DNA from: Medicago truncatula
Taxonomy: Eukaryota; Streptophyta; Magnoliopsida; Fabales; Fabaceae
Assembly (NCBI RefSeq): GCF_003473485.1
Contig: NC_053044.1
Location: forward strand, 52,988,091-53,052,090
DNA length: 64,000 bases
Reading direction: 5' to 3'
A program made the position numbers and the translations under genes. The notes under the pieces are model-generated. The model had not been told where the DNA came from. It saw nothing but the letters and a program-made list of their open reading frames with translations, and did not search any database. Positions 27,842 through 31,797 of this stretch are shown in pieces (the stretch's first letter is position 1; every line of letters starts with the position of its first letter).

Positions 27842-27950
27842 CTCTTCGTTTTTAAATATAAGCAAATTTTACTTTTTAGATTTATTCAATTAATGTTGTA
27901 TGTGGTCTATATTATGAACCACGTAAACCTAAAGTAAAATTTTACTTATA
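27842..27950. mobile_element. Stowaway MITE, left part split by the Helitron
   Basis: It starts CTCTTCGTTTTTAAATATAA after TA and breaks off at ...TTTTACTTATA. Its missing right terminus, TTTGGAAACGGAGGGAG followed by TA, is found 3.85 kb away at 31798-31814. The Helitron therefore inserted into an existing MITE of about 126 bp. Confidence 0.75.
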
Positions 27951-28116
27951 CTAGACCATTGACCCGTGCTAACGCACGTGTCATTTAAAAAAGATAATAT
28001 TCACTTAAAAATAAGACACCGTAGTTCGCGTGAATCTAAAAATTGTCATGAATCAAAGCAAAATGTCAATACCAAAGACTTTGTTATTGTTCCATAATTC
28101 TAGTACGTAGTTCTTG

Positions 28117-28897
28117 TTACTTTAAAATAACATATAATTTTGAAAGGGAAATTGAAGTTCGTTGACATGCAAATAGTTTCAATAAGTAAGAAAATGAACA
28201 GTACACAAAAAAGTCATACACATTACGGAAAACTTCTCTGTAGACCACATTTGATGCAACATCGATATCATCGTCGTCGTCGTTATTAATCAATATTTTT
28301 AAACCACCCCTTGAAGTAACCCGTGATATTGCGACGTACAATTGTCCATGTGAAAAAATAGGAGACGGTAGGTAGACACCAACATGTTCTAGCGACTGAC
28401 CCTGACTCTTGTTAATAGTCATTGCAAATGAGACAGATATCGAAAATTGCCTTTGTTTAAATTTGAAAGGAATTCTATTATCAGATGGTGTTAGCGATAA
28501 CCTTGAAATAAACACCTTCTCACCGATATTAGAACCAGATATTACCCGTCCTTCGAGCTGATATGTACCCCCTTCTTCAACCATGGACCTGAACTTTGCC
28601 ACCAAATCTTTTCTAGCTGTGGCGTGAATACGTCCACCCTATTGACGAAAACAACAACATTAAACAGCTGGTTAAATTACATAACTAAAAAACAACGATG
28701 ACATTAGTTTAATTTTAAAGCTAAGAGTACAAACATGCAGAAACCTTTTCATCGACCAGTAACATGTTCATGAAAATTATGCTAGTGGGGACCTTCTTCT
28801 CTCGAATCAACCAAATGTGAGCAACTCGCACACACATCTTGAGATTCTTTCTTCCTCTAGAAACAGCTGAGATTGGAGTGTATTTGGCAGACATCAT
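28117..28897 (-). CDS. RPA-type OB-fold fused to Helitron helicase C-terminus
   Basis: The two exons are 28897-28745 and 28638-28117, with a GT-AG intron in phase 0. The frame is open for 224 residues. Exon 1 ([20 protein letters not shown], then VRVAHIWLI) and the start of exon 2 ([16 protein letters not shown] ... GGTYQLEG) match the N-terminal OB-fold of plant RPA70-like proteins, the kind that plant Helitrons carry. From [13 protein letters not shown] onward it is the C-terminal end of a PIF1-like Helitron helicase: [28 protein letters not shown] and [19 protein letters not shown] (motifs V and VI). The join lies at about residues 82-84. Helicase motifs I-IV are missing, so no ATPase activity is expected. 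A single-stranded-DNA-binding product is possible if it is expressed. Two adjacent ATGs (28897, 28894) could both start it. Confidence 0.72.
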
Positions 28898-29054
28898 TGG
28901 CTTGTTTTTTCCTTTCCAAGAAAGAGGATGCTTATTTAGATTGAGATGGTTTGGCTAATAGGTTATGATATATTTATAGGAAAAAGGTGCAATACGTGTT
29001 AGTAGGATATGTCGGTTGAGCAATAAATAGTATTAGTTATCAGGATAAGCACAA

Positions 29055-29320
29055 AAAAGTGGAACAAAATTAGGAAGTGGCCAACATTTTAGGATAAAGA
29101 TTAATATGAATAAAATGAAATTAATATTGTTGATGAGGCACTTTGTTTTACTTAAGAATTGGCATGTAAATAGGGAAGGGGCGCAGAACAAAGGGATGTA
29201 GTTGAAGTGGAATAAAATTATGCTCAACATTTTTGGATAAAGATTAATATGAATAAAATGAAATTAATATTTTTGATGGGACATTTTTTTTGACTTAAGA
29301 ATTACCATAGTTGACTCACC
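29055..29320. repeat. Two-copy tandem duplication, about 143 bp
   Basis: The block containing AAGTGGAACAAAATTA and GGATAAAGATTAATATGAAT (29058-29165) recurs 143 bp on (29204-29305). The copies have diverged slightly. It lies between the OB-fold/helicase frame and the 79-85-bp array inside the Helitron. Confidence 0.6.
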
Positions 29321-30080
29321 AAAACATATTTTAGAGATGTGGATTAAATCTCTTAGTTACTTGAATGAGAGAAATTAGGATTAGGATTTTAATTTGTTTC
29401 CACCCAAAACATATTTTAGAGATGTGGATGAAATCTTTAGTAGTTACTTGAATGAGATGAATTAGGATTTTTAGTTTATTTCCACCTAAAACATATTTTA
29501 GAGATGTGGATGAAATCCCCTAATTATTTGAATGAGAGAAATAAGGATTTTAGTTTGTTTGCACCAAAAAGTTACTTTAGAGATGTGGATGAAATCTCTT
29601 AGTTACTTGAATGAGAGAAATTAGGATTAGGAATTTAGTTTGTTTCCACCCAAAACATATTTTAGAGATGTGGATGAAATCCCCTACTTATTTGAATGAG
29701 AGAAATAAGAATTTTAGTTTGTTTCCACCAAAAAGTTACTTTAGAGATGTGGATGAAATCTCTTGGTTACTTGAATGAGAGAAATTAGGATTAGGATTTT
29801 AGTTTGTTTCCACCTAAAAAATATTTTAGAGATGTGGATGAAATCTTTAGTAGTTACTTGAATGAGAGGAATTAGGATTTTTAGTTTGTTTCCACCCAAA
29901 ACATATTTTAGAGATGTGGATGAAATCCCGTAATTATTTGAATGAGAGAAATAAGAATTTTAATTTGTTTCCACCAAAAAGTTACTTAAGAGATGTGGAT
30001 GAAATTTCTTAGTTACTTGAATGAGAGAAATTAGGATTAGGATTTTAGTTTGATTCCACCCAAAACATATTTTAGAGATT
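29321..30080. repeat. Tandem array of 79/82/85-bp units with higher-order pattern
   Basis: The anchor AGAGATG recurs at 29333, 29418, 29500, 29579, 29664, 29743, 29828, 29910, 29989 and 30074. The spacings are 85, 82, 79, 85, 79, 85, 82, 79, 85. Each unit carries GATGTGGATGAAATC, TTGAATGAGAGAAAT and TTTGTTTCCACC. Length classes follow sequence classes: the 85-bp unit has TTAGGATTAGGATTTTAG, while the 79-bp unit starts from the AAAAGTTACTTTAG variant. The order A-B-C-A-C-A-B-C-A shows a duplicated 246-bp block. Confidence 0.92.
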
Positions 30081-30398
30081 AGGATTAGTAATTGTTAGTA
30101 ATAATGTTACTAAAAGTGTCACCAAAAGGTAGTAATTGTTACTAATAATGTTACTAAAAGCTATGCTACTAAAATGCTTCAATAACACAGCAATGCTACT
30201 AAATATAGTTTGAGGAGCACAAACACAAATATATAAATCAAAAACCAAAGCAAGCAAGGCTAAATTATTTATGAAATTCAAGGGACATTTGCTAAATTCA
30301 AAGACAAAAAAATAGATGCTTCCAAAACTCTAAGAAACTAAAACTTAAAATTCAAAGTGGAAAGGTGTTGCACAATTTATCTAAACATGGACTAATTG

Positions 30399-31348
30399 TT
30401 AGATGGTATCATGTGACCCAACCATCGGAGCACCCCCTCTGATCTTCACACCTTCACGGAGCCTGCGAGCTTCCACAAACCTATTCCAATGCCGTCCTAT
30501 CTTGAAGTGTTCATAAGGAAAAGTTGCAAAAGTTAGCTCACACACCCATAAGTTACCGCAATTGTCGATAATATTCACAGTTGTCTTGAGTGTATCTAGC
30601 ATCTGTGGAACATTGCCGGTGTAAAGTAGAATCTGCAAAATTAGAAATCCATGTAAGTTATATCAACTAAACGGAAAAAGAATAAAAGAAGTTAAGGTGG
30701 ACACGAAAAGTGTATCATACCATGCAACCTTTAGTAACATCATACTCAGTTAATTTTTTTTTCGAAATCAAGAACCATGTCAGTGATACTGTGACGATAA
30801 GCGAGAAGAGATGTTATTGGGGGGAGATGGTCATCGAAAGTTGCTTGCAAATTCATCTTGTCAAGAAGGAAATGCATAGGGGGATCAAAAACCGGGTAGG
30901 GGATACTCTTGTGAAACCTATCAGACAACTGTATATCAAACTGTCCGTCACCAACAAAAACCAAGGTAATTCAGGCACCAAGATCGATTGTGTAAAAGTC
31001 ACGAATCGCTTTCCATCCCTTTGTGAGAAAAAATGCTCCGTTTACTTTGTCGACCAATGCTTCAAACTTGTTGGACTTAAGATCAGTCAATATTGCATAG
31101 CACCCAATTTGATCTCCAAAATCACCGCCAAACATGTTTGGCAAGCATACTGCACCCTAAAAAAATAACAAACAAAAACATCACAAACGTTGATAAAATA
31201 GAATGCAAATAATTAAGAATACGTATATTTCGCAAAAAACACATACAACATCAATGTCATATTCAACGATATATGATCTGTATTTCAGTCTCAGCTTGTT
31301 GATTGCTTTGTCAAGATCGGAAAGAGGGTTTTTCACCAACGTATAGAC
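30399..31348 (-). pseudogene. Decayed protein gene with two B3-like DNA-binding domains
   Basis: Translated on the minus strand, 31348 onward reads VYTLVKNPLSDLDKAINKL. After a GT-AG intron it continues with NMFGGDFGDQ, FEALVDKVNGAFFLTKGW, IRDFYTIDLGA, then FDIQLSDRF, a B3-type fold. A second domain follows after another intron: TTVNIIDNCGNLWVCEL, HFKIGRHWNRFVEARRL, REGVKIRGGAP, ending at 30399. A TGA at 30973-30971 replaces the Trp expected after LGA. A run of nine A (minus strand, 30762-30754) shifts the frame before the second domain. No exon coding in frame with 31348 could be found upstream, although an ATG exon-like stretch starts at 31510. It lies wholly inside the Helitron, so it is either a captured host gene or standard cargo of this Helitron family. 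The B3 assignment rests on pattern memory. Confidence 0.55.
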
Positions 31349-31797
31349 CTACAAAAGATTAAAAGGGATTGAAAGAATGATTTATATTTTACAACATCGA
31401 GGAATAAGAGCAAAAGTCTATATATTTAGTATAAACCAGAGTGGAATGAAGATATGGTTATCAGTGAGGCAGTGGTATGATAGCAAAGTTTGAATGTTTC
31501 TGGAAGCCATGTTGATTAAGAAATTTCAGTTTAAGGAGAAATGTATGGTTTTAGAAAGAGATTTCCGTTTAGGAGAAAGGATTAAAATATATTGGTGAGG
31601 GTTTGGAGGAGGGGAGTTAGGAGATATGGTTTATGGAAATCAATTAGATAGGTTTTAGGAGGAGTGAAGTTAGGAAATCATGGTTAGGGTTTGGAGGAGG
31701 GAAATTAGGAAATATGGTTAGGTTTTGAAGGAGGGAAAAGTTGCTAAAATATTAGGTTAAAATTAGGGCAACAAAGCTTTGTTTAGGAATAAGAAGA

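Follow-up and report, generated by a model that had tools for sequence, protein, structure and literature searches.

In the part of the rice Mothra report drawn on here (PMC4683698), autonomous, RPA-only and non-autonomous Helitrons occur side by side, and the elements without RepHel include a deletion derivative and have an autonomous sister family as their proposed mobiliser. The DHH_Mothra mother element and its derivatives, as they appear in that same part (PMC4683698), resemble the element studied here in being without RepHel yet keeping an RPA-like gene; whereas the mother element has an RPA gene, however, the RPA sequence here is cut and continues in frame into a helicase remnant. For maize Helitron circles, the cited portion of the account reports microhomology at deletion junctions, with one junction lacking any (PMC10095026). 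Plant Helitrons with RPA and RepHel in one element have the same genes, and other lineages in this genome also carry them in cis, whereas our element has only RPA and helicase remnants and no Rep match. The helicase to which the tail traces back aligns in its native form with the Helraiser transposase (7lcc; query residues 11-382, E 3e-77), whereas the window element retains only the last 111 helicase codons. An in-frame RPA-helicase join was named in none of the paper titles found by a literature search, which was judged largely by titles.

The chimeric frame lies within the window, i.e. the whole 64,000-nucleotide stretch of Medicago truncatula DNA that was analysed, and comprises 224 codons (51 + 173) on the minus strand, with its ATG at 28897 and its stop ending at 28117. 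These coordinates and those of the predicted GT-AG intron (Table 1) are as the first-pass annotation had placed them. Across the copies described below, the splice donor is intact in 16 of 17 and the acceptor in all 17. The helicase-derived part presumably carries motifs V-VI. In the window copy, the final 33 residues (28218-28120) are read-through beyond the native helicase stop; all 16 remaining family members still have its TAG.

Table 1 Features of the chimeric frame and of the element that carries it.
Feature	Position in window	Strand	Basis
Whole non-autonomous Helitron, 3,847 bp	27951..31797	-	End of homology among copies; terminal contexts
3' terminal hairpin CGTGC-GTTA-GCACG, 14 bases from end	27965..27978	-	By reading, not program-folded
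Exon 1, RPA-like N-terminus, 51 codons	28745..28897	-	PF02721 match; 17-copy alignment
Predicted intron, GT-AG	28639..28744	-	Sequence, and same intron in unjoined RPA gene of L059
Exon 2 overall, stop included	28117..28638	-	Frame reading
Exon 2, RPA-derived part	28559..28638	-	Matches unjoined RPA genes, e.g. L059, L082
Join, GCTCGAA in window	28552..28558	-	Three-way comparison
Exon 2, helicase-derived part, 111 codons	28219..28551	-	Continuous with full helicase frames L025, L098
Private read-through and new stop	28117..28218	-	Native stop TAG changed to TAT in window copy
Candidate TATA-like TATAAATA, 74-81 bases upstream of ATG	28971..28978	-	By reading sequence
Remains of B3-like gene; ORFs 30399-30662, 30746-30970, 30971-31156	30399..31156	-	PF02362; relatives elsewhere

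PF02721 (DUF223) is a plant RPA-type domain. The spliced chimera matched it over residues 5-76 (E 1.1e-6; 29.3 bits, cut-off 24.6), and its helicase part matched PF02689 (29.6 bits, cut-off 27), with UvrD_C_2 remaining below cut-off. Together with the unjoined relatives of both halves, these matches confirmed the annotated chimera of an RPA OB-fold and a Helitron helicase tail. Searching Pfam with the raw single frames returned Herpes_Helicase (PF02689) and, weakly, Hepatitis_core; because the complete gene encodes a PIF1-type helicase, the PF02689 label was taken as a resemblance among helicases. The RPA domain of the chimera is truncated, covering profile positions 1-69 of 104 as compared to 1-103 in the native gene. 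Likewise, neither the PIF1 ATPase (PF05970) nor the 2B (PF21530) domain, both present in the full helicase L098, matched the chimera at E values of 1 or less.

Homology between copies of the surrounding DNA ends at 27950 and 31798, delimiting the element. Its 5' end begins with TC at 31797 (TCTTCTTATT...), preceded by a host A (31798), and its 3' end reads ...GGTCTAG, the CTAG finishing at 27951 and being followed by a host T (27950). As expected of a Helitron, the insertion is thus between host A and T, with 5' TC and 3' CTRR ends, and a short hairpin, identified by reading, stands just ahead of the 3' end. The exact 19-base 3' end recurs in 12 of the 16 other loci of the family, with T following in 14 of 14 occurrences. 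None of the 126 genome matches to PF14214 (150 of 154 candidates scored) lies at the element's place on contig C3, i.e. no Rep was found in it. Tandem repeats of ~82 bp at 29317-30100 produced a ladder of shifted matches among the copies and bring to mind the blocks of tandem repeats mentioned in the abstract of the Mothra report (PMC4683698).

The genome searched comprised 430 Mb in 42 contigs. The join of the window copy (family A) was found at 17 or more places, spread over six contigs of chromosome size (C1, C2, C3, C4, C7 and C8), a lower bound with 40 of 427 candidates scored, and the neighbouring bases differ between places. Other copies with the same fusion point, for which the first-pass annotation had proposed to search, therefore exist, and the join is not unique to the window, which on the annotation's own terms speaks in its favour. 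A 35-base join pattern with at most three mismatches retrieved 15 places, as compared to 0 for a control pattern; the two family A copies outside this pattern search, L009 and L024, carry indels at the pattern. Mean divergence among the 17 copies is 2.6%.

A sister family, B, has its 5' half in common with family A, and in it RPA exon 1 is joined at TTGG to an earlier helicase point. Pattern searching placed this join at 14 sites, and the helicase is out of frame in all 11 distinct copies compared (14 locus rows, including three duplicates). Out-of-frame family B is about as widespread as in-frame family A, at 14 versus 15 places in similar pattern searches. Joins A and B sit on one shared 5' backbone, each at 3-7 nt of shared sequence. 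In other Helitron lineages, L096 (C4:5735300-5737000) and L097 (C3:32638200-32640300) have RPA near helicase without Rep between them, and in L096, read without splicing, the helicase is outside the RPA frame.

Both source genes exist in unjoined form. In L059, a related element, the unjoined RPA gene contains ...GTYQLENAIVGF and ...GTYQLENAIVGFNE...; L025 is a related element with an unjoined helicase gene. Placing the RPA (CAGCTTGAAAATGC), helicase (GTGCTCGAAGGACGG) and window (CAGCTCGAAGGACGG) sequences side by side put the join within GCT(C/T)GAA (28558-28552), where RPA has GCTTGAA and helicase GCTCGAA, sharing 3 nt exactly or 7 nt with one mismatch. The in-frame fusion point of the earlier annotation was upheld, while its sharp junction between G and R gave way to this short shared stretch. 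At least 44 unjoined RPA hits, L059 included, exceed 90% amino acid identity over nearly the whole query; these relatives may have a counterpart in the Mothra mother element, which is RPA-only. Five unjoined RPA hits are identical across the query, three of them within 81 kb on C5, which points to recent spread or local duplication. On the helicase side, L098 (637-2322, minus strand) has an open 561-amino-acid frame with PIF1 and 2B domains; no Rep match lies near it among the PF14214 matches listed, and L098 is perhaps a helicase-only element.

In other Helitron lineages, the three genes follow the order RPA, Rep, helicase in cis. Among the matches listed, RPA hits had Rep within 15 kb downstream on the same strand in 22 cases, upstream in 0 and on the opposite strand in 3, and helicase lay within 15 kb downstream of Rep in 26 cases and upstream in 2. 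For RPA and helicase, the listed matches had the helicase downstream in 17 cases, with hit starts a median of 9,140 bp apart, upstream in 2 and on the opposite strand in 3. At least 12 RPA-Rep-helicase rows were obtained, two having Rep and helicase in common, with an RPA-helicase span of 8.7 to 18 kb. The count took in 112 of 150 RPA, 95 of 126 Rep and 149 of 150 helicase rows, the omitted RPA rows being 14 family A fusions, the 21 weakest and 3 fragments. Given this order, loss of the middle stretch would explain the chimera, in support of the deletion between two genes that had been suggested as its origin. Among the matches listed for the three genes, none represented a close element combining RPA, Rep and helicase; the nearest three-gene element among them, at C1:41.75 Mb, is 72-76% alike.

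Upstream of the chimeric frame, the element contains the remains of a B3-like gene. PF02362 matched only ORF 30971-31156, below cut-off (E 0.029), and searching the PDB with the B3-like ORF gave no notable match. Among the matches listed, at least 11 of 54 other-lineage RPA loci have a B3-like relative on the same strand, 1.6-4.6 kb upstream, with 0 downstream and 0 opposite; five of these 11 loci also have Rep downstream. This count covered 54 of 65 other-lineage RPA rows and the best 150 of 312 B3-like matches. The B3-like gene is possibly a regular component of Helitrons, with the genes arranged as B3-like, RPA, Rep, helicase. None of the paper titles listed by a literature search paired Helitrons with a B3 domain.

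The first-pass annotation had taken the integrity of the frame as a hint of selection. Complete frames with start and splice sites kept were present in 7 of 17 copies (window, L010, L012, L013, L014, L015 and L020), L023 stays in frame despite a 45-bp deletion, and nine frames are broken (L009, L011, L016, L017, L018, L019, L021, L022 and L024). As divergence of the copies is only 2.6%, many frames can be open simply from youth. A stop after codon 23 is found in L021 and L024 and also, at a CpG site, in L016, where it perhaps represents a second event. L021 and L024 are 0.2% apart and, besides the premature stop, have in common 14 variants absent from every other copy; their flanks are unlike except for one 34-bp, 82% match. 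Being near-identical, with the same premature stop in unlike surroundings, they most likely reflect copying of an element whose frame was already broken. With nine broken frames, a copied stop-bearing element and an out-of-frame family B that is about as widespread, the hint of selection is not supported.

Next, changes across the 17 copies were counted against the commonest base per column, with a neutral expectation derived from the mutation spectrum of the complete alignment, which takes in the exons; the count omits a single stop-codon change, that of the window copy. The 72 nonsynonymous, 25 synonymous and 3 stop changes compare with expected values of 70.0, 25.5 and 4.5. For all changes together omega was 1.05 (CI 0.66-1.72), i.e. 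not below 1 as in a selected gene, and an omega of 0.5 had a P of 0.0006. This comparison of substitutions across copies, which the first-pass annotation had put forward as a check and whose neutral outcome it had named as grounds for refutation, thus fits neutrality for all changes together. Changes confined to one copy gave an omega of 1.16. Those in two or more copies (18 nonsynonymous, 8 synonymous, 2 stop), which partly derive from source elements, gave 0.82 (CI 0.34-2.17), a value that leaves room for what may have been moderate constraint in the source lineage. The density of variable sites was 0.175 per site in exons versus 0.162 in non-coding parts, and of the exonic indels 3 were in frame and 7 frame-shifting.

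Pooled pairwise dN/dS in family A was 0.87 overall (136 pairs), with 0.92 in the RPA part and 0.85 in the helicase part. As controls, native helicase tails from 18 loci gave a pooled value of 0.27 on 56 usable pairs out of 153 (median 0.11, 47 pairs). The value was 0.33 for the seven closest helicases and 0.51 for native RPA pieces, again from 18 loci, on 83 pairs out of 153 (median 0.38, 53 pairs). The helicase control separates well from family A and the RPA control less so; since native RPA is itself only mildly constrained, the RPA half is the weaker test. Family A pairs with Ks >0.05, a filter favouring pairs rich in synonymous changes, had low median dN/dS values of 0.28 in the RPA part (20 of 136) and 0.49 in the helicase part (37 of 136), which count against the neutral reading. 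Eight same-family native RPA copies yielded a ratio of 7.8 (pS 0.004, pN 0.034); the loci were chosen from a list ranked by protein identity, which biases the sample, and this ratio was therefore not used for inference and remains without explanation.

We consider it probable (roughly 85%) that the chimeric frame is passenger DNA that arose by an in-frame deletion in a non-autonomous Helitron and was multiplied by copying. An ancestor element would have had the gene order RPA, Rep, helicase and lost the stretch from RPA exon 2 to the helicase C-terminus, ~9 kb if other lineages are a guide to its size. The break would have been sealed at the short shared sequence, bringing RPA and helicase into one frame by chance (1 in 3). 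Having retained both Helitron ends, the 3.85-kb product could then have been copied to at least 17 sites with Rep-helicase acting in trans, the frame being a passenger that youth has left intact in some copies. Three-gene elements exist in the genome as possible partners for mobilisation, even if the nearest among the matches listed is the one at 72-76% likeness. How the join formed is a separate matter, on which template switching between separate RPA and helicase elements, rather than deletion within one, is a less likely but serious alternative; it concerns the origin only, leads to the same passenger outcome and overlaps with the deletion explanation. It would fit the distribution of close relatives, which have RPA and helicase in different elements: on one side stand the numerous unjoined RPA hits, L059 among them, and on the other L025 and L098, whose helicase frames have no RPA hit beside them among the matches listed. 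Two joins on one 5' backbone, both at a few shared nucleotides, would suit it as well. Other lineages, however, hold RPA and helicase in cis in the right order, so that one deletion suffices.

That the chimera is a working protein maintained by selection, e.g. the single-stranded-DNA-binding decoy or transposition regulator envisaged at first, or specifically a repressor of transposition, is in our judgement very improbable. The whole frame with its start and splice sites in 7 of 17 copies, the TATA-like sequence ahead of the ATG and shared variants compatible with moderate constraint speak for such a role, but pooled substitutions and indels fit neutrality and a copy with a premature stop was itself copied. 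Moreover, with the RPA profile cut short and matches to the PIF1 ATPase and 2B domains lacking, both halves are incomplete as domains, so that single-stranded-DNA binding or motor activity is unlikely. We hold it just as doubtful that the chimera was translated in the source element, aiding the spread of family A as a dominant-negative form or cofactor, and that selection was relaxed after insertion, hence the neutral look of the copies. An assembly or chance artefact, with two unrelated fragments happening to be open, can be set aside almost entirely: it is already refuted by the existence of copies, the same join recurring on chromosome-size contigs beside differing bases while the control pattern found nothing.

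On the favoured passenger reading, the locus illustrates how little an open chimeric frame in a transposon says about function: a deletion between two genes has about a one-in-three chance of leaving them in frame, and the product is then multiplied by copying. The window element also adds a legume case to the gradual, stepwise loss of autonomy that has been put forward for rice Mothra (PMC4683698), and is one more example of that kind.
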